This document shows, in pieces, positions 49,177-59,103 of a DNA stretch of 64,000 bases. The notes beneath the pieces were generated by a model, which did not search any database, was not told the DNA's origin, and was given only the letters and a program-made list of their open reading frames with translations. Source of the stretch: Sphingobium sp. MI1205 (GTDB lineage: Bacteria > Pseudomonadota > Alphaproteobacteria > Sphingomonadales > Sphingomonadaceae). The position numbers and the translations under genes are program-made. The first letter of the stretch is position 1; each line of letters begins with the position of its first letter. Where the stretch lies: positions 253,501 through 317,500 of the forward strand of contig NZ_CP005188.1 of assembly GCF_001563285.1 (NCBI RefSeq). Direction: 5' to 3'.

Positions 49177-49252
49177 TGGTGGGCGATGACGGGCTCGAAC
49201 CGCCGACATTCTCGGTGTAAACGAGACGCTCTACCAACTGAGCTAATCGCCC
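49177..49252 (-). tRNA. tRNA-Val (anticodon UAC)
   Basis: 76 nt with encoded CCA. Acceptor GGGCGAT against ATCGCCC, D-loop with GCTC...GAGC, anticodon loop TTTACAC (UAC), T-arm with GTTCGAGC. It is the last clear chromosomal gene before the prophage. Its 3' end faces away from the prophage, opposite to the usual tRNA attachment orientation. Confidence 0.95.
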
Positions 49253-49405: not shown

Positions 49406-50137
49406 TTAGCTTCGAGCGGTAAAGCCAAAGGCGTGACCTTGTGATCGCGCGGCGACGACCCGCTTGGCTTCTTCGGTGCTGCCGTAGAGCGTAACCGGGT
49501 CCACAGAGGCAGCCAGGAAAATGGTTTCGGGAACATCGCTCTCATTCATCAAACGTACGATCGCGGCGACCCGCTTATCGAAAGCCGCTTTCACGATCTG
49601 GCTAGCAGCAGGTATCAACCGCGCTAGTCGATCTATCGTGGGCCGATCGACTTGCACCCGGTTTGTATATCCGAGCGGTGCCCAGCCATCCTCGAACTTC
49701 TGAACAAGAAGATGATCTCGATGCCAGATCCTATCGCCGATCTGTTCCTCCGCATAGACATGAGCTATTGCGCGGTTTCGAGCGGCAGCGACAATGTCGT
49801 GATCAGCTTGCTGATCGCCCGTCAGCTTTTCGCGGACTTGTATTGACCCTCGTTCGCCTCGCTTCGCGCTTGTGACTGTGGCTCGCGCATAGAGCGATAT
49901 AGCGTTGAAGAGCAGGGCGCATTCGGTTGTTGATCTCGCCGTGCTGCCTAACCCCCTTGGGCTCTTCAATAGACCTTCCAGTGCCTCGATCGTGTGGGCG
50001 GCCTCGGCAAGATCGCTGTGGCAGGATTGCGCAATCAGCGCCATTCGGATCATCTCAGCCAGCTTTGCAAAACGCGGGTCGCCGTCCAGCTGGACAGCGA
50101 CACGGCGGAGATCGGCTATCGGCGGAATACCGGCCAT
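49406..50137 (-). CDS. Hypothetical protein with HEPN-type RNxxxxH motif (prophage cargo candidate)
   Basis: 243 aa. No family recognised, but residues 120-126 read RNRAIAH, the R-x(4-6)-H signature of HEPN RNases, in a helical context (LLFNAISLYARATVTSAKRG before, VYAEEQIGDRIWHRDHLLV after). ATG 50137 was chosen over 50203 because TAAGGTGA lies just upstream. Between tRNA-Val and a long inverted repeat, close to the phage cos site. If the HEPN call holds, it could be an abortive-infection effector; it might instead belong to the chromosome. Confidence 0.6.
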   Translation of the reverse strand: MAGIPPIADLRRVAVQLDGDPRFAKLAEMIRMALIAQSCHSDLAEAAHTIEALEGLLKSPRGLGSTARSTTECALLFNAISLYARATVTSAKRGERGSIQVREKLTGDQQADHDIVAAARNRAIAHVYAEEQIGDRIWHRDHLLVQKFEDGWAPLGYTNRVQVDRPTIDRLARLIPAASQIVKAAFDKRVAAIVRLMNESDVPETIFLAASVDPVTLYGSTEEAKRVVAARSQGHAFGFTARS

Positions 50138-50261
50138 AGTCACCTTAACCATTTGGAGCATCAGTCGCTCGCGGGCGCTCCATACCGCGCCTGTTCCGTG
50201 CATTCCAAATGCATGCGGAGCAAGGGTAAACGGCTATATGGCGGCATCGCAAATAGTAAGC

Positions 50262-51535: not shown

Positions 51536-52435
51536 ATGTCGGTTATCAAGAGCTTCGCCGTCGGAAGCGGCGATATGTTTTACATCAAGCACAATAGTGC
51601 GAACTTCACGATCATTGATTGCGACCTATGTGAAGGAAACGCTGATCAGATCATCAAGGAGTTGAAGGAGCAATCCGCAGGAAAGGAAATCACGCGATTT
51701 ATCTGCACCCATCCAGATGAAGACCACTTTGGCGGCATCGAGCGATTGGACGATGCGATGCCGATTGTAAACTTCTACGTCGTAAAAAATCAGGCGGTTA
51801 AGGACGAGGACACGGTGTCCTTCCAGCGATACTGCCAATTGCGGGACGATCCGAAAAAGGCGTTCTACATCTATAAAGGATGCAAGCGCCGCTGGATGAA
51901 CTTGGAAGGCGACGGACGATCAAGCTCAGGGATTCAGGTCCTCTGGCCAGATACGTCAAACGCGCACTTCAAAGAAGCGCTTGCCGCATGTGAGGCGGGC
52001 GAACATTTCAACAATACATCAGCGGTTGTGCGTTACAGCCTTAACGGCGGAGCGAGCTTTCTGTGGCTTGGGGATCTCGAAACTGAGTTCATGGAAAATA
52101 TAGTCGATCACATCCAACTGGACAAAACCACGGTTGTTTTCGCAGCACATCATGGACGAGCTACCGGTAAGATCCCAAACAGTTGGCTCGAAAAGCTCGA
52201 TCCTCAAATCATTGTCATCGGGGAAGCGCCAAAGCGGCACTTGCATTATTACACCGGCTATCAAACTATCACGCAAAACACGGCGGGTAATATCACGTTT
52301 GATCTCGTCGGAGATCGCGTCCACATCTACGCCGATAACAAGAACGGATGCCCCGACAACCTAACGGATGAAGGGCAGACCAAATTCGACGGCTATGTGG
52401 GGTCGATTACCGTAGAGACAGAATACACGCTGTGA
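51536..52435 (+). CDS. ComEC/Rec2-like metallo-beta-lactamase-fold hydrolase (cargo)
   Basis: 299 aa. The metal motif His59-Pro-Asp61-Glu-Asp63-His64 (CTHPDEDHFGG) is the HxDxDH-type site of ComEC-like MBL proteins; further ligands are GDLE in FLWLGDLETEF and the His pair in FAAHHGRATG. No TM segment or signal, so it is a cytosolic stand-alone nuclease/hydrolase. Less GC-rich than the head genes. It ends 12 bp from the convergent membrane-protein gene. AGGAGG-like GGGAGG precedes ATG 51536. Not a known P2 structural gene; sits in the P2 cargo region between cos and Q. Confidence 0.75.
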   Translation: MSVIKSFAVGSGDMFYIKHNSANFTIIDCDLCEGNADQIIKELKEQSAGKEITRFICTHPDEDHFGGIERLDDAMPIVNFYVVKNQAVKDEDTVSFQRYCQLRDDPKKAFYIYKGCKRRWMNLEGDGRSSSGIQVLWPDTSNAHFKEALAACEAGEHFNNTSAVVRYSLNGGASFLWLGDLETEFMENIVDHIQLDKTTVVFAAHHGRATGKIPNSWLEKLDPQIIVIGEAPKRHLHYYTGYQTITQNTAGNITFDLVGDRVHIYADNKNGCPDNLTDEGQTKFDGYVGSITVETEYTL

Positions 52436-52447
52436 GTAGCAGAGCCA

Positions 52448-53239
52448 TCAAGGCACCTTATCCGCTGGCAGCGTGGCGTAGGTCCTGATGACATCGCTGG
52501 AATAAGCGGAATAAAATTTAAGGAATCTCCCGAACATTCCCACAGCTAACACGGCAGAGCCAGCCAAGATAAACGCTGTCTGGTTAGTGGGTGTCTGAAG
52601 TTGGCGGTAGGTAAGTGCACCTACCGCCACTAAGCTGACGAAACAGATATTTCTGCTCATCCCATACTGATTCATGAACGAGTTCAGGCGTCCGACGGTG
52701 TCGCTCACTCCACGCACAGGGTGGAATGCAGCCTGAAAAACCGTCTCACCGTCAAGCTGATCCTCAGCAACACCCAACTGCTTTGCCGCTCTTGCAAGTG
52801 CTCTTGCCCTTATCGGCTCCCGCAGCGGCGCATACTCGCGTGGTGCGAAACAGGCCGCAAGGCGGCGCTCAACCCAGTTCCGGTCCCGGAGGCCGAGCTG
52901 AATATCAGCCGGGATGGAGAGCAACCGGCGGGCTAACAAATGCTCAATCAAAGACGAGGATGGACCTGCAGTGATCTGGCCCGTCAGATAAGCTACCACG
53001 GTCCAGAACACCCCATCAATGATGTTCCAGTTAGTGCGATTGACGAGGACGCCCCCTGTTAAGGAATAATCAAGGGCGGCAATCAGGAGCATGCCCGAGG
53101 CTACAAAGGCGTAGAACTCATATTCAGCCAGAGGAAACCAGTCTTTCACTGAATAAGCCTTCTGATCAGAGCGGTAGATCACCGCCCGGTACCCTATCGT
53201 AACGAATGGTGAAAGAGGGACTGCGTTCCGCCCAGGCAT
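52448..53239 (-). CDS. Multi-pass membrane protein (cargo, cotranscribed with Q)
   Basis: 263 aa, about four TM helices: FYAFVASGMLLIAALDYSL, VFWTVVAYLTGQITAG, ICFVSLVAVGALTYRQL and AFILAGSAVLAVGMFGRFL, with a basic cytoplasmic loop (about 105-175). No family recognised. It starts only 8 bp past the Q stop on the same strand, so it is read with the late portal transcript; convergent with the MBL gene. A membrane effector or superinfection-exclusion protein is possible. Confidence 0.65.
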   Translation of the reverse strand: MPGRNAVPLSPFVTIGYRAVIYRSDQKAYSVKDWFPLAEYEFYAFVASGMLLIAALDYSLTGGVLVNRTNWNIIDGVFWTVVAYLTGQITAGPSSSLIEHLLARRLLSIPADIQLGLRDRNWVERRLAACFAPREYAPLREPIRARALARAAKQLGVAEDQLDGETVFQAAFHPVRGVSDTVGRLNSFMNQYGMSRNICFVSLVAVGALTYRQLQTPTNQTAFILAGSAVLAVGMFGRFLKFYSAYSSDVIRTYATLPADKVP

Positions 53240-53247
53240 CGGGCCCC

Positions 53248-54297
53248 TTACTGCGCCTTCACCCGCTCCAGAAATCGCACCGCCTCAAAACCCAGTTTAT
53301 CGTTGAGTTCGAGGAAGACGGACTGCAGAGGCTGGATCTCCAGTTCAAAGAAGCTGTCCAGCGCCTTGGCCGGATCGCCGAAGCCGCCCGCGTTGGCCGG
53401 GATGATGCCGAGCAACTGCGGCGGGACGCGATGCGCGGCCAGCACGTCATCGCGCGTCGTGTTTTTGATCCCCAGAAATTCGTCCTTCGCACCGACTTCG
53501 GCGATCGGGATGATCTTGATGCCGTTCTCTTTGCCGCTGGGCGAGTGGACGAACATGTTGCGGAAATTGCCCGGCCCCTTTGCTCGCTTCAACGCGTCGC
53601 GCATGGCAGCGACGTCGCCATTGGCAAAGTCGCCGGTGGCATAGAGGATATAGCCCGCGTGGCTCCCGTTCTCGAAATAGCGGCGGCGGAACAGCGTGGC
53701 ATTCTCATTGAGCAGCGCTGACTGCAGGGCCGACAGATATTCGGGCAGGCCATAGATTTCCTGATTGATGTCAGGCGCGAGCAGCTGATGCACCGTGCCC
53801 GGCACGAACTCGCTTTCGTTCCGATGACCCGGCACCCACCAGAAGCGGCCCGGCTCGATGCCGCGCCGCGTATATTTGGCGAGTGGATGTTCGAGCCGCA
53901 GCACGCCGCCCAGCTGGTTGCGGATCTCCTGCGCATAGGCGTTGCCCATCACCAGATAGTCCTGCACCATCCCGGCGAAGACCTTGCGCGACAGGAAAGG
54001 CGTGGGATCGAGGCTGGCCGCCAGCAAGTTCCGCTTGAGCATGATGGCGCTGCTATGGTGCGGCGACGCGCGGAATGCGCGGGCAAGCCCGTCCAGCGAA
54101 ATCGGCGGCTCATACCAGCGGCCATTGTCCCAGCATTCCAGCATGTCGAGCATGGTGGCCCGGCTCAGCACCGGCTCAGGATCCCCGAAGCTGAACGTCT
54201 CGATCGCGCCGCCCCGATTGTCATTGGCCGCGACGATCGCGCCCTCGGACGCTGCAGCCGACTCCCGGCGGTTCATACGGCGTGCACGCTTGCTCAT
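53248..54297 (-). CDS. P2 family portal protein (gpQ)
   Basis: 349 aa. Forms the ring at the head vertex through which DNA is packaged. Recognised from the P2 gpQ family: FSFGDPEPVLSRATMLD, CWDNGRWYEPPISLDGLARAFRA and the conserved MVQDYLVMGNAYAQEIRNQLG. Length near P2 gpQ (344). ATG 54297 overlaps the terminase stop (ATGA). P and Q leave the divergent P/O region leftward as in P2. Confidence 0.92.
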   Translation of the reverse strand: MSKRARRMNRRESAAASEGAIVAANDNRGGAIETFSFGDPEPVLSRATMLDMLECWDNGRWYEPPISLDGLARAFRASPHHSSAIMLKRNLLAASLDPTPFLSRKVFAGMVQDYLVMGNAYAQEIRNQLGGVLRLEHPLAKYTRRGIEPGRFWWVPGHRNESEFVPGTVHQLLAPDINQEIYGLPEYLSALQSALLNENATLFRRRYFENGSHAGYILYATGDFANGDVAAMRDALKRAKGPGNFRNMFVHSPSGKENGIKIIPIAEVGAKDEFLGIKNTTRDDVLAAHRVPPQLLGIIPANAGGFGDPAKALDSFFELEIQPLQSVFLELNDKLGFEAVRFLERVKAQ

Positions 54298-56147
54298 TCG
54301 ATGATCTCCATTGTGCCCTTGGGCGCTTCCTTGCCGTCGAGCGGTTCGTTCATGAGGATGTGCATGGTGGCCCAAGCCAGATCCGCGTGGCCGTCATTGC
54401 CCCCGCGCCCAGCCTTGAACGTGATATTCCGCCCGCTGGTGGTCAGCGTCTTCTTGATCGACACGAACGCGGACACGAGATCGAGCAGGCCGCTGTCGAA
54501 CGCGAGGCGGCCCCGGCGGATGACGTTCTGCGCCTTCATGATCATCTGCGCCTTGAGTTCGAGCGAATATTCGATCTTGGCGACGGCGCAGCCCGGCAGC
54601 GCGCCGGGCTTCGCCATGATCTGATAGACGCCCGCGCCGACGCCCTTGGCGTCGATGCCCAGATAGGTGCAGGTATAGCGGCTCAGGACCGCCTTGATGA
54701 ATTCCGCCTGCTGCTCGAAATCGAGGCCGCGTAGCTGGTGGCGCTCAAGGATCCTGAATTGCCCGCCTTCGACCAGCGGCGGCGCGGCGATGACCAGCGC
54801 GGCATTGTCGCCATTCTCGCTTTCCTGCGGATCATAGCCCGCCCAGACCGAACGCTTGCCGTAGGGCCGCGCCGCCTCCGGGTTGAAATCCTGCCATTCG
54901 ATCAGGCTGTCGCACCCGCAGGCGATCATGTCATTGAAGCGGAAGGCGGACTGGCTGTCGTCAACGAAGTCGCACATGAACAGATTGGCGAATTCGTCGG
55001 GCGCGTATTCATCCTCCAGCTCTTCAATGTCGAATAGGTCGCAGCCGCCCATCTCGGCGTCGCGGATGTTGACGATGTTCCGCCAGATCCGGTCCGGTCC
55101 GGCCATGCCGATCGCCAGCGCATCATGGCTGACATCGATCTTGATCTGATCTTCCTTCTTGCGCCGACGGTTGCGGCGGTCGCCGGTCCAATAGGGATAG
55201 GCCGGATGCGCGACGCTGGACGGCGTGGAGAAGTAGGTTTTCCGCCACTTCTTATGCGTCGCCATGCCAGAGGCGACCTTGTTCAATTCCTCGAACGAAT
55301 GGACCCAGAAGAATTCGTCAAAGTAGAAATTGCCGTGGCGGCCCTGCGCGGTGCGGAAATTGGTGCCAAGGAAATGCAGTTCTGCCGCCGCTTCCTCCGC
55401 TGGCCGCAGATCCGACGTGATCAGCATCGGGTCGCCGGTCAGCGCGACGCCGACCAGCTTGGCGAAGCTGACGATATAGGACCGGAACTGGTGTGCCTGG
55501 GCTTTCGATGCCGACAGGAATATCTGGTTGCGGCCCGTCTCGATCGCGTCGATCAGCGCCTCGAACGCGAAATAGTAGGTTGCGCCGATCTGGCGCGACT
55601 TGAGGATCATGCGCGTGCGCTGATCCTTCGCCTGCCACCAGCGATGCTGATAATCATAGAGGCCGTCGAGGAAGACGCGCTTGAGTTCTTCCGCCTGCTC
55701 GGCGGTGAAATGGTTCTTTTTCGGCTTCTTGCGCTCGCCCGCGTTGCGGTTGCCGACCTTCTCGTTGAGGTCGCCGCTATGGCCGCCGGGGGCCTCATAG
55801 CGGCGGACCTTGGCGAGGCTTTCGATCTGGCGCGACAGCGCGTCCATCTCGACATAGTCGCCGCCGGTCTTCTTTTCCTTGGCGATCAGGGTCAGCAGCT
55901 TGATTTCGATGCCATCCTCGATCTTGCGGATCGAGGGGGCATCATCCCAACGCTGCCGTTGCTTCCAAGATTCGATCGTCGCGCGCGCGATCGGCTTGCC
56001 CTTGTCGCCCACGACGCCATGCAGCGCGAATTCTTCCGCGATCTGCGTCACCCCATAGCCACGCCAGTAGAGGCTGCGGGCGTGACGGGGCGGATCGAAC
56101 TGCCAAAGGACAGCAGGCGCGCCGGGCTGGGGAGATTGAGCGGTCAT
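54294..56147 (-). CDS. P2 family terminase large subunit (gpP)
   Basis: 617 aa. N-terminal helix-turn-helix (GVTQIAEEFALHGV, about 35-55), ATPase core with LKSRQIGATYYFAFEAL (about 180-195) and a C-terminal RNaseH-like nuclease (GIDAKGVGAGVY). Cuts concatemers at cos and pumps DNA into the prohead. ATG 56147 gives MTAQSPQPGAPAVLWQFD; the frame back to 56291 crosses the late promoter dyad. Confidence 0.92.
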   Translation of the reverse strand: MTAQSPQPGAPAVLWQFDPPRHARSLYWRGYGVTQIAEEFALHGVVGDKGKPIARATIESWKQRQRWDDAPSIRKIEDGIEIKLLTLIAKEKKTGGDYVEMDALSRQIESLAKVRRYEAPGGHSGDLNEKVGNRNAGERKKPKKNHFTAEQAEELKRVFLDGLYDYQHRWWQAKDQRTRMILKSRQIGATYYFAFEALIDAIETGRNQIFLSASKAQAHQFRSYIVSFAKLVGVALTGDPMLITSDLRPAEEAAAELHFLGTNFRTAQGRHGNFYFDEFFWVHSFEELNKVASGMATHKKWRKTYFSTPSSVAHPAYPYWTGDRRNRRRKKEDQIKIDVSHDALAIGMAGPDRIWRNIVNIRDAEMGGCDLFDIEELEDEYAPDEFANLFMCDFVDDSQSAFRFNDMIACGCDSLIEWQDFNPEAARPYGKRSVWAGYDPQESENGDNAALVIAAPPLVEGGQFRILERHQLRGLDFEQQAEFIKAVLSRYTCTYLGIDAKGVGAGVYQIMAKPGALPGCAVAKIEYSLELKAQMIMKAQNVIRRGRLAFDSGLLDLVSAFVSIKKTLTTSGRNITFKAGRGGNDGHADLAWATMHILMNEPLDGKEAPKGTMEIIE

Positions 56148-56193
56148 CGCGGCGGACCATGCCCCGCGCCCAAGCCCCTGATCATTGGCATCT

Positions 56194-56217
56194 ATTTGGA
56201 TAGCCGCCTGTCCAAAT
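56194..56217. promoter_or_regulatory. 24-bp dyad, probable late-activator site between P and O
   Basis: ATTTGGA-N10-TCCAAAT with spacer TAGCCGCCTG. The same dyad, with 8 of 10 spacer bases identical, stands at 63,400 before the J operon. Placement between divergent P/Q and O-S units is where P2 uses Ogr/Delta (TGT-N12-ACA) sites. 47 bp from the P ATG and 94 bp from the O ATG. Confidence 0.7.
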
Positions 56218-56311
56218 GCAGGGCCTTGAGCCTGCCCCCGCGACGGCCCCTTTCTGCTGCCCATCAGGCCAGCGCCTGCGCGCCCAAGCAACCAAGGGAA
56301 CCGGATCGATC

Positions 56312-57115
56312 ATGGCAAAGAGCAAGTTTTTCCGCGTCGCAGTCGAAGGTGCGACCGTCGACGGCCGCGTTATTCAGCGCGAATGGCTGGAGCAGATGGC
56401 GGCCAGCTATGATCCGGCCACCTACACCGCGCGGATCAACTGCGAGCATATCGCCGGTTACAGCCCGGATCGCCCTTTCAACGCCTATGGCTCCGTCCTG
56501 TCGCTCAAGACCGAAGAAGTCGAACTGACCATCAACGGCGAGAAGAAGACGCTGCTGGCGCTCTATGCCGAGATCGACGCGAACGATCAGCTGGTCGAGA
56601 TCAACAAGGCCGGGCAGAAGCTGTTCACCAGCTGCGAAATCCACCCCGACTTCGCTGGCGAGGGAAAGGCTTATCTGGTCGGCCTCGCCGTCACGGACAT
56701 GCCCGCGTCGCTCGGCACCGAAGCCCTCAAATTCGCGGTCAAGTCGCGCTCGAACGTCTTTTCCAGCGCCCATGAAACCGCGCTTGAACTGGTTGCAGAC
56801 CCGGTGGATGGACAGACCCTCGGCGAAAGCATCGCGCGCGGCATCGCCAGCTTCTTCAAAAAGGAGAAGAAGGACGAAGCCGAAACGCCTCCGCCTCCGC
56901 CGCCCGCCAACGACAACAGCTTCGATGTTGCGGCTTTCGGCAAGGTCATCGGTGACCAGATCGCCGCCGCCGTGAAGCCCGCCAGCGATGCCGTCGCGGC
57001 ACTCGGCACCCGCTTCGATGCGCTGGAAGCCAAACTGAACAGCACCGAGCAGTCCCAGACCTTCAAGCGCTCGCCCGCCACCGGCGGCAGCGGCGGCGTC
57101 GTCACGGACTGCTGA
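56312..57115 (+). CDS. P2 family capsid scaffolding protease (gpO)
   Basis: 267 aa. N-terminal serine protease that processes the prohead, C-terminal scaffold helix. Catalytic triad can be read as Asp17, His46 and Ser107, close to the P2 numbering (19/48/107). C-terminal segment with AAVKPASDAVAALGTRFDALEAKL is the coiled-coil scaffold. ATG 56312 gives MAKSKFFRVAVEGATVDGR. Confidence 0.92.
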   Translation: MAKSKFFRVAVEGATVDGRVIQREWLEQMAASYDPATYTARINCEHIAGYSPDRPFNAYGSVLSLKTEEVELTINGEKKTLLALYAEIDANDQLVEINKAGQKLFTSCEIHPDFAGEGKAYLVGLAVTDMPASLGTEALKFAVKSRSNVFSSAHETALELVADPVDGQTLGESIARGIASFFKKEKKDEAETPPPPPPANDNSFDVAAFGKVIGDQIAAAVKPASDAVAALGTRFDALEAKLNSTEQSQTFKRSPATGGSGGVVTDC

Positions 57116-57171: not shown

Positions 57172-58254
57172 ATGCGTAACGAAACCCGCCTGCTCTTCAC
57201 CGCCTATGTCAGCCAGATCGCTCTGCTGAACAGCGTCGCCGACGCCACCGTCAAGTTCAGCGTCGCGCCCGTCGTGGAGCAGAAGCTGGAAGAGAAAATT
57301 CAGGAATCGAGCGAGTTCCTGAGCCAGATCAACATCGTCGGCGTGCCTGAACAGTCGGGCCAGAAGGTCGGCGTCACCGTCACGCGCCCGCTGGCGAGCC
57401 GCACCAACACCGCAGGCGGCACGCGCCGCACGCCCACCGATCCGACCGACACCACGGACGACGGCGGCTATTTCTGCAAGCAGACCAACTTCGACCATGC
57501 GATCAAATATGCGAAGCTGGACGCTTGGCGGCACAAGCCGGAATTCCAGACGCTGCTGCGCGACGTGATCCTGAAACAGCAGGGCCGCGACCGCATCATG
57601 ATCGGCTTCAACGGCACGTCCGCCGCCGCCGCCACCAACGTTGGCGAGAACCCGCTGCTGCAGGACGTCAACGAGGGCTGGCTGCACAAGATCCGCACCC
57701 ATGCCGAAGAGCGCGTGCTGGACGACGGCGCACTGTCCACCGATCCGACCAAGGCGATCTATGTCGCCGCCGGGGTCGAAGTGGTCGATGCCGACGCCAC
57801 CAACGTCGCCACCGCCGATGCCGATTTCGCAAACCTCGACGCGCTGGCCTTCGACGCGCTCGATCTGCTGGATCCGTGGCACCGCAGCGATACCGACCTT
57901 GTCGTCATCGTTGGCTGGAAGCTGGTGAAGGACAAATATGCCAATCTGCTCCAGGCAGCGGGCGATACCGCCACGGAACAGGAAGCGGCGCACCGCATCC
58001 TGACCCTGCCCAAGCAGCTGGCCGGCAAGCGTGCCGTCATCGTGCCCTTCTTCCCCGAAGACGCGATGCTCATCACCAGCCTCGATAACCTGTCGATCTA
58101 CTGGCAGGAGGAAACCCGCCGCCGCCAGATCAAGGACGAACCGGCGCTCGACCAGATCGAGAACTACGAGTCCGTCAATGAGGCTTACGTCGTGGAAGAC
58201 TATGGCCGCTGCGCCTTGGTCGAAAACGTCGTGATGGGCAAGAAGCCCGCCTGA
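57172..58254 (+). CDS. P2 family major capsid protein (gpN)
   Basis: 360 aa (P2 gpN 357). HK97-fold capsid subunit; N-terminus MRNETRLLFTAYVSQIALLN resembles the P2 family, followed by DGGYFCKQTNFDHAIKYAKLDAW and PVTPFFPEDAM-like PFFPEDAMLITSLDNLSIYW. Cleaved by gpO on maturation. 56 bp after gpO. Confidence 0.93.
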   Translation: MRNETRLLFTAYVSQIALLNSVADATVKFSVAPVVEQKLEEKIQESSEFLSQINIVGVPEQSGQKVGVTVTRPLASRTNTAGGTRRTPTDPTDTTDDGGYFCKQTNFDHAIKYAKLDAWRHKPEFQTLLRDVILKQQGRDRIMIGFNGTSAAAATNVGENPLLQDVNEGWLHKIRTHAEERVLDDGALSTDPTKAIYVAAGVEVVDADATNVATADADFANLDALAFDALDLLDPWHRSDTDLVVIVGWKLVKDKYANLLQAAGDTATEQEAAHRILTLPKQLAGKRAVIVPFFPEDAMLITSLDNLSIYWQEETRRRQIKDEPALDQIENYESVNEAYVVEDYGRCALVENVVMGKKPA

Positions 58255-58293: not shown

Positions 58294-59103
58294 ATGAGCC
58301 TCGCTCGCCGCCACAGGGACAGGATCCTTGCTGCCAAGACCGTTGCGTCCGCTCCCGAAGGTGGAGCGGATGCCACCCCCGCTGCCGACACTCTCCCGGT
58401 AGCGGGGGCGGTCAACGCCTCGCCCGCGCAACAGGCCGCCGCGCAGGTCGCGCTGCGCCTGACCCACGATCTGCGCACCCTCAAAGAAATCCGTTCGATC
58501 GACCGGAAGATCGAGGCGAAGCGGCAGATGCTCCCGGAATATCGGCCATGGGTGCAGGGTATCCTCGCCGCCGATGCAGGCGTTGGCACCGGCCTCGCCG
58601 CCGAAGTGGTGCCGACCTGCATGGTCTGGCTCATCGACGTCGGCGACTATGACAACGCGCTGAGCCTCGCTGAATTCGTGTTGCGCCACAACGTGCCCAT
58701 GCCCTCGCGCTATCAGCGCGACGCCGCCACGATCATCGTCGAGGAAATCGCCGACGCAGCTTTGAAGGCGCAGAACGCGGGCAATCGCTTCTCGCTTGAG
58801 ACGCTGGGCGAGGTTTTGGACCTGACGTTCGCCTGCGACATTCATGATGAAGTCCGAGCGAAGCTCATCAAGGCTGCTGGCAATGAGGAACTGGCCGCTG
58901 GTGAAGCCGCCGAGGCTACTGCCGCCGCTCCGTTTCTGGATCGGGCTCTGTCGGCCTTCAACGAAGCCCAGCGACTGAATGACCGTATCGGCGTCAAGGA
59001 CAAGATCAAGCGGGCGAACAAGCTGCTGGCGGCCATCACCGCCGCCGCGCCTGCCACGAACAACGAACAGGGCGGCCCAGACCAGAACGGTTCGGGCGCC
59101 TGA
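58294..59103 (+). CDS. P2 family terminase small subunit (gpM)
   Basis: 269 aa. Recognised by the P2 gpM family layout: an Ala/Pro-rich start, LRTLKEIRSIDRKIEAKRQM, YRPWVQGILAADAGVGTGLA, then VWLIDVGDYDNALSLAEFVLRH. Binds cos and directs gpP. ATG 58294. Followed by a 120-bp gap (59,104-59,223) holding a good GGAGG before the next gene. Confidence 0.9.
   Translation: MSLARRHRDRILAAKTVASAPEGGADATPAADTLPVAGAVNASPAQQAAAQVALRLTHDLRTLKEIRSIDRKIEAKRQMLPEYRPWVQGILAADAGVGTGLAAEVVPTCMVWLIDVGDYDNALSLAEFVLRHNVPMPSRYQRDAATIIVEEIADAALKAQNAGNRFSLETLGEVLDLTFACDIHDEVRAKLIKAAGNEELAAGEAAEATAAAPFLDRALSAFNEAQRLNDRIGVKDKIKRANKLLAAITAAAPATNNEQGGPDQNGSGA

Follow-up and report, generated by a model that had tools for sequence, protein, structure and literature searches.

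What are a nuclease-like gene and a membrane-protein gene doing beside the portal gene of a P2-like prophage? The question arises in Sphingobium sp. MI1205, in a stretch of 64,000 nucleotides that was analyzed as a whole and is called the window here. Its prophage is defined as P2-like by Q, P, O, N, M, GPD, Ogr, a Toprim protein, and a tyrosine integrase, and the same prophage is also present as an IMG/VR contig.

The gene pair and its prophage setting

A preliminary description of this DNA had reported two convergent open reading frames (ORFs) at 51536..53239, ending 12 bp apart. Both ORFs are present at those coordinates, and the 12-bp separation is confirmed between their stop codons (52435/52448). 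The features of the region, in window positions, are as follows:

MBL-fold hydrolase gene: 51536..52435, + strand; 299 aa; PDC-M48B family; predicted soluble ComEC-like nuclease domain
HPDEDH codons: 51710..51727, + strand; residues 59-64; ComEC-type metal-binding motif (HxDxDH)
Four-TM protein gene: 52448..53149, - strand; 233 aa with the probable GTG start; ORF extends to 53239; weakly Csx27-like; NQYGMSRN before helix 3
Q, portal protein (ORF): 53248..54375, - strand; Phage_portal 1.2e-13; phrog_68 6.1e-139
P, terminase large subunit (ORF): 54294..56291, - strand; Terminase_6N 9.5e-55; Terminase_5 7.2e-12
O, capsid scaffold/protease: 56312..57115, + strand; Phage_GPO 1.1e-85
N, major capsid protein: 57172..58254, + strand; Phage_cap_P2 8.1e-131
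M, terminase small subunit: 58294..59103, + strand; Phage_term_smal 2.9e-44
attL core: 49215..49252, no strand; 38 bp identical to attR at C1:340620-340657; within the 5' half of tRNA-Val (49177-49252, - strand)
orf265: 49406..50203, - strand; between attL and the pair; unknown function

The integrated prophage runs from attL through orf265, small ORFs, the MBL gene, the four-TM gene, and Q, and further on through D, a gene that appears repressor-like by eye, ogr, the Toprim protein gene, and int to attR. The pair had been placed between the replication end and Q. That holds only for the circular phage, with attP in between; in the integrated prophage the pair lies between attL and Q, and the Toprim, ogr, and int genes are at the far end. 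The intact copy of tRNA-Val is now preceded by phage sequence, so this tRNA may depend on a phage promoter. The three small neighbors of the pair (orf265, orf54, and orf107) matched no named defense gene in PADLOC, the only hit being a weak one of orf265 to JetC (0.0083); orf265 had no match at E<=1 in Pfam, PHROG, or NCBIfam. Its GC content is lower, at 0.579, and it may be further cargo. Beyond the window, but still within this prophage, the tail region includes a gene for a TIR-domain protein (PF13676, 2.4e-12) whose strand is opposite to that of the tail genes (L034:4808-5581, corresponding to G000:C1:322108-322881); it is likely a second defense cargo.

The MBL protein is 299 aa long, and a scan for hydrophobic segments found none in it. 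It matches the PADLOC model PDC-M48B (PDLC04673) with an E value of 1.7e-140 across residues 1-294, in effect its full length, so that the profile search suggested earlier does place it in a family of defense candidates. It also matches Pfam Lactamase_B (6.3e-5) and, in part, the PADLOC models Avs1a, LmuA, and RTasMBL. Its scores against two NCBIfam models were below cut-off (36.3 bits against 220 for 6A-MBL NF058524, and 34.5 bits against 420 for Avs1a). The family returned 1353 database matches, of which the best 120 are listed. The HPDEDH motif described for residues 59-64 is indeed there, as H59-D61-D63-H64 within THPDEDH (58-64). In Foldseek, the predicted model (pLDDT 79) best matched the MBL domain of ComEC (9ic4, E 4.1e-9), and the catalytic motifs HxDxDH, N-x-x-S, D, and HHG align with those of ComEC structures 9ic4 and 30bt. 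Furthermore, H59, D61, D63, and H64 are invariant in two alignments (A2, 21 sequences; A4, 8 sequences), while one of the eight rows of A4 carries HHS instead of HHG. Judged by these residues, the protein keeps an intact ComEC-type active site, and we infer that it is a metal-dependent DNA nuclease. Segment 115-127, the lowest-confidence inner stretch of the model, contains the conserved residues R118, W120, and N122, with R128 just beyond. More speculatively, this segment could be a lid comparable to the insertions of HamM, a defense MBL described in the available text of PMC12799240 as a proenzyme DNase that becomes active once proteolysis has cut two insertions covering the active site.

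The membrane gene probably starts at GTG 53149, not at 53239, since AGAAGG stands eight bases before that codon and 31 of the 39 other rows in alignment A1 begin exactly at residue 31 of the ORF. With that start, the product would have 233 aa and Q would be about 100 bp away. The earlier claim of four transmembrane segments fits four hydrophobic segments in a 2+2 layout (residues 42-60, 73-91, 193-211, and 222-240) and a confident AlphaFold2 model made up of long helices (mean pLDDT 90). Foldseek returned no solved relative, and no structural likeness to a channel stood out; nor does the protein have a known ligand-binding domain. Its family is small, with 41 database matches. The match of the window protein to the Csx27 model is weak (E 0.024). 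Of 40 family members, that model matches 18 at E<=0.1 (the strongest at 1.2e-7, with those shown spanning most of the model) and leaves 22 without a match at this threshold; it also partially matches a flagellar-type export locus (8.5e-5, positions 9-94). Size and topology, at 233 aa and four segments, fit the Csx27 family (about 200 aa, four TM segments). These comparisons point to a small family with weak Csx27 similarity. The PDC-M48A models gave no reported match at E<=1 for the window protein, in a search whose filters remove most matches above 0.1. They matched one of 40 family members at E<=0.1 (0.0083), and the partner on a Blastomonas plasmid scored 0.014.

Is the pair cargo, or is it part of the phage proper? 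A Q of this kind (E<=1e-60) occurs in 25 of 298 host-family genomes, at 28 places counting the window. Of the 27 other places, we inspected 20 to about 5 kb downstream of Q, contig ends cutting two of these short, and the remaining 7 only to about 1.5 kb. The genes found there differ among related prophages (L088 has a D12 adenine methylase and L078 an AAA/TPR protein), in agreement with the idea that the Q side is a variable site. The check proposed earlier, whether the pair recurs beside Q in other P2-like prophages, came out negative for the host family, as neither gene was found at any of the 27 other places. Given this differing content and the 0/27 count, the Q flank looks like variable cargo space, with the pair private to the window prophage in our sample. 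Both genes are also rare: the MBL gene turned up in its own genome only, both among 397 host-family genomes (E<=1e-20) and among 337 genomes sampled from the class (E<=1e-40), and the membrane gene turned up in 4 of the 397 (E<=1e-5).

It could still be argued that these are conserved phage structural or replication genes, or else neutral passengers. They adjoin Q, and there are PHROG matches to consider: part of the MBL protein matches the "tail protein" family phrog_7043 (1.6e-14), and there are matches to two families annotated as unknown, namely, phrog_14556 for the MBL protein (1.2e-9) and phrog_12528 for the membrane protein (1.5e-7). However, the phrog_7043 match covers positions 767-837 of 1077, a small part of that family. 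Apart from this caveat, neither protein resembles P2 structural or replication genes in Pfam or PHROG, and the preliminary description had likewise held that neither is structural. The pair was not found at the 27 other Q places of the host family, and the active site of the MBL protein is conserved in distant plasmid and chromosome relatives. Base composition likewise sets the pair apart, and the impression that it is AT-richer than the head genes was correct (GC of 0.502 for the MBL gene and 0.546 for the membrane gene versus 0.617-0.651 for Q, P, O, N, and M). We therefore disfavor the structural or passenger reading and regard it as highly improbable.

Recurrence of the pairing

Viewed from the membrane family, all 12 non-redundant readable loci (window included) have a ComEC-like MBL gene no more than two genes away, a set that stands against 41 database proteins, the genomic context of most of which is invisible. 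Besides the window, these loci are as follows:

L025, Blastomonas plasmid: MBL then TM, 4-bp overlap, operon; MBL type PDLC04673, as in the window; same two families
L004, L005, L006, L007, and L010: TM then MBL, 1-4-bp overlap; MBL type PDLC04674
L024: 80-bp gap, membrane gene has an in-frame stop; MBL type PDLC04674
L031: convergent, 4-bp overlap; MBL type PDLC04676; restriction endonuclease nearby
L022: MBL then TM; divergent MBL (PDC-M48B 6.1e-11, no Pfam match at 0.001)
L030: TM convergent with E2-E1-JAB, then MBL; 6A-MBL family (NF058524 1.7e-127, NF058523 3.4e-161)
L002: MBL, E2-E1-JAB, TM; 6A-MBL family (56.5% and 45.6% identical to the L030 proteins)

The MBL belongs to the PDC-M48B subfamilies PDLC04673, PDLC04674, and PDLC04676 in nine of the 12 loci, is divergent in L022, and is of the 6A-MBL family in L030 and L002. 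Nine pairs are co-directional and three are convergent. In addition, among 72,556 plasmid records, the MBL gene was found in six (E<=1e-20), the membrane gene in six (E<=1e-5), and both in one, where they are adjacent with a 4-bp overlap. Partners are exchanged: compared with the window, L022 has a membrane protein that is 64.5% identical but an MBL with 25.5% identity, while in L025 the MBL is 73.6% identical and the membrane protein 41.5%. The suggestion that a soluble nuclease-like protein and a membrane protein form a recurrent pair is thus supported by all 12 readable loci, and the pairing is a true recurrent module, not a product of chance. On the narrower question of whether the window's own two genes co-occur elsewhere, the outcome is divided. 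They do so in the plasmid operon, with the same families, and at other loci, with the same membrane family and related MBLs, but not in other P2-like prophages. As a separate observation, a 4.4-kb stretch with MBL, E2-E1-JAB, and TM genes is identical in L002 and L003, which come from a Xanthobacteraceae MAG and a Sphingomonadales MAG, reflecting either recent transfer or a binning error.

The view from the MBL side comprises 11 non-redundant loci (the window, L012, L013, L014, L015, L025, L026, L027, L028, L029, and L032), with full-length relatives that are 43-74% identical. In eight of them, the protein encoded next to the MBL has four hydrophobic segments; this partner is a patatin in one (L013; PF01734, 2.2e-18), is an Abi_alpha protein in one (L012; PF14337, 2.5e-10), and was not recognized in one (L026). 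MBL relatives adjoin four-helix proteins in Actinobacteria and Firmicutes as well. The L015 partner both matches PDC-M48A (best 2.9e-53) and has four hydrophobic segments, which shows that PADLOC's A component can itself be a four-segment membrane protein.

This varying slot lends itself to a CBASS-like interpretation, in which the MBL would take the cyclase's place and make or remove a nucleotide-type signal, the four-TM protein, patatin, or Abi_alpha would be the killing effector, and E2-E1-JAB proteins would tune the response where present. Genes of the E2-E1-JAB type, or a JAB fragment, do adjoin the MBL in L014, L026, and L032. Yet no CD-NTase match was obtained among the window genes scanned, the membrane partner has no recognizable domain for binding a ligand, and in the available text of PMC12799240 the defense MBL is described as a DNase rather than as a signal enzyme. 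We consider this interpretation quite unlikely.

Some of these loci deserve description in their own right. L014:1930-8165, on a viral contig, has a 6A-type MBL and an E1-JAB-like gene (26-27% identical to those of L002 and L030 over the C-terminal half) beside, and divergent from, a four-TM and PDC-M48B-like MBL pair; the locus is two related modules side by side. L026 is Rhizobium leguminosarum plasmid pRLa11 (300186-315091), on which the MBL relative clusters with a patatin, a JAB-like fragment of 63 aa, and a number of other proteins that appear MBL-like by eye. On the temperate-phage contigs L012 and L013, the MBL and its Abi_alpha or patatin gene lie, again by eye, near terminase or head-like genes, and packaging-gene junctions may be repeated sites for MBL cargo.

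The surroundings of the relatives also bear on whether the pair has anything to do with immunity. Its likeness to ComEC and its location at the prophage edge would suit lysogenic conversion or a phage-helping role, such as DNA uptake, counter-defense, or lysogeny control. Relatives, however, are found on plasmids and on an E. coli island with no other phage genes in view. The E. coli form occurs in 5 of 5426 genomes, two of which were opened, and its island carries a 6A-type MBL (NF058524 1.2e-114), a ThiF E1 (7.3e-19 to the 6A cap2_3 model, below cut-off), a JAB protein, and a convergent four-segment gene. Moreover, the neighborhood of some relatives includes a restriction endonuclease (in L031), type I restriction genes (in L028), or E1/JAB genes (in L030 and L032), and PADLOC lists the family. 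A role outside immunity is, in our estimation, very unlikely.

Finally, all 41 members returned for the window's membrane family carry a short signature, YGxxRN, immediately ahead of their third hydrophobic segment. So do the best 120 of 619 matches that make up the listing for a second membrane family, and so do 16 of the 19 membrane proteins encoded in the loci studied; the exceptions are the partners in L015, L029, and L032. The rate in shuffled sequences is 0.001 per protein, and none of 23 MBLs has a looser form of the motif. These counts come from the same sequences in which the motif was first spotted, and the family members are not independent. A profile comparison of the two YGxxRN families placed the motif in register (E 0.0094, low probability), and common descent of the two families seems likely.

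Proposed function

We lean toward the view that the pair is a prophage-borne, two-gene immune module of the kind that joins PDC-M48 or Csx27-like proteins to a ComEC-type MBL, in a minimal membrane-nuclease form, and we hold this to be moderately probable. The four-TM protein would sit in the inner membrane and hold or gate the MBL. A signal from another infecting phage would then release or activate the pair, upon which DNA would be cut, the membrane permeabilized, or both, and the lysogen would thereby stop competing phages from multiplying. Because a patatin or Abi_alpha can replace the membrane protein beside the MBL, we think that the membrane protein more likely acts as an effector or a gate than as a passive anchor. 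In favor of the module are the full-length PDC-M48B match, the MBL neighbor in all 12 readable loci of the membrane family, the exchange of partners, the YGxxRN signature, and two precedents from the literature, namely, HamM as a DNase switched on by proteolysis and the depolarizing pore formed by Csx28. Against an immune module stand the weak Csx27 match, the finding of no named defense gene among the three small neighbors scanned, the lack of a solved relative of the membrane protein in Foldseek, the phrog_7043 match, the presence of the MBL in a single genome of 397, and the fact that neither gene was seen at the 27 other Q places.

The same components could instead block entry. Here, the four-TM protein would be a conduit or anchor where incoming DNA meets the MBL, which would degrade injected, conjugated, or transforming DNA, as a split ComEC reused for exclusion. 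The fold and residues of the MBL match the ComEC nuclease domain, and Csx27 itself has been predicted to be a channel for transport or degradation of single-stranded DNA, according to the available text of two reviews (PMC7642515 and PMC8209922). But the partner of MBL relatives can be a patatin (L013) or Abi_alpha (L012), which are not channels, and the structural search brought out no channel likeness, although this proves little. On balance, we find an entry block unlikely.

A wider and more speculative scheme would gather the YGxxRN four-TM proteins and MBL nucleases into one broad immune superfamily, which would take in PDC-M48, the Csx27 type, and an unrecognized third (membrane) component of 6A-MBL. 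It would have a CBASS-like build with a ComEC-type nuclease replacing the cyclase; the nuclease would sense or process phage nucleic acid and so open the membrane protein, E2-E1-JAB would be an optional control, and the window pair would be the minimal prophage form. We regard this scheme as doubtful.

Returning to the two-gene immune module, the pairing recurs in distant bacteria, where it is a suspected antiphage module. The window pair is the simplest form that we met, consisting of two short genes in a temperate phage without an adjoining E1 or trypsin-like protease, and this simplicity allows each component to be tested separately as well as in combination with the other. If the pair is protective, it would tie the Cas13b accessory family, E2-E1-JAB operons, and PDC-M48 candidates to one mechanism, and annotation tools could recognize partners that were missed by the PADLOC models used.

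Relation to known systems

The statement that no named system contains this pair needs correction. PADLOC-DB 2.0.0 lists PDC-M48, a phage defense candidate with models A and B, although no mention of it was found in the literature searched. The window resembles it in matching the B component at full length and in having an adjacent partner that also has 2+2 hydrophobic segments; it differs in that its genes are convergent and its membrane protein has no A-model match at E<=1. In addition, Makarova, Gao, Zhang, and Koonin (2019), as relayed in the available text of PMC8209922 and PMC7642515, assigned Csx27 to a family of membrane proteins that is associated with genes of natural competence and of the ubiquitin system. 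The window protein likewise has four TM segments in about 230 aa, with ComEC-like MBL neighbors and, in two family loci, E2-E1-JAB genes, but its own Csx27 match is only 0.024. Csx27 is a Cas13b accessory protein, on which the reviews, so far as their available text goes, disagree as to whether it represses or augments Cas13b. Csx28, another such accessory protein, is described as a depolarizing pore in the accessible portion of PMC12669027.

Systems built around an MBL offer further comparisons. In the accessible text of Iyer et al. 2006 (PMC1779556), an operon of E2-E1-JAB plus MBL is type 6a. This 6A-MBL system (NCBIfam NF058523/NF058524; row 6a of that paper) has an MBL-fold component in common with the window, and relatives of the window membrane protein adjoin its operon in L030 and L002. 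The window differs in that orf265, orf54, orf107, MBL, TM, Q, P, O, N, and M gave no E2, ThiF, or JAB match, and its MBL is below cut-off. The modules that combine an MBL with a trypsin-like protease in Hachiman, AVAST, Lamassu, and DRT, as outlined in the available part of PMC12799240, share a ComEC-like defense nuclease, which is where the partial Avs1a, LmuA, and RTasMBL matches belong. In the window the partner is a membrane protein instead, and ten window genes gave no trypsin-like match, O being the phage's own scaffold peptidase; for AVAST type 1 in particular, the window MBL is under the Avs1a cut-off. ComEC shares its MBL fold and catalytic motifs with the window protein, which lacks a channel domain in the same polypeptide.

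In the literature searched, as far as its available text extends, no experiment on the ComEC-MBL/membrane kind was found. Since the kind is already known from computation, what the window contributes is a new member of it, one that is set in a prophage and consists of two genes.
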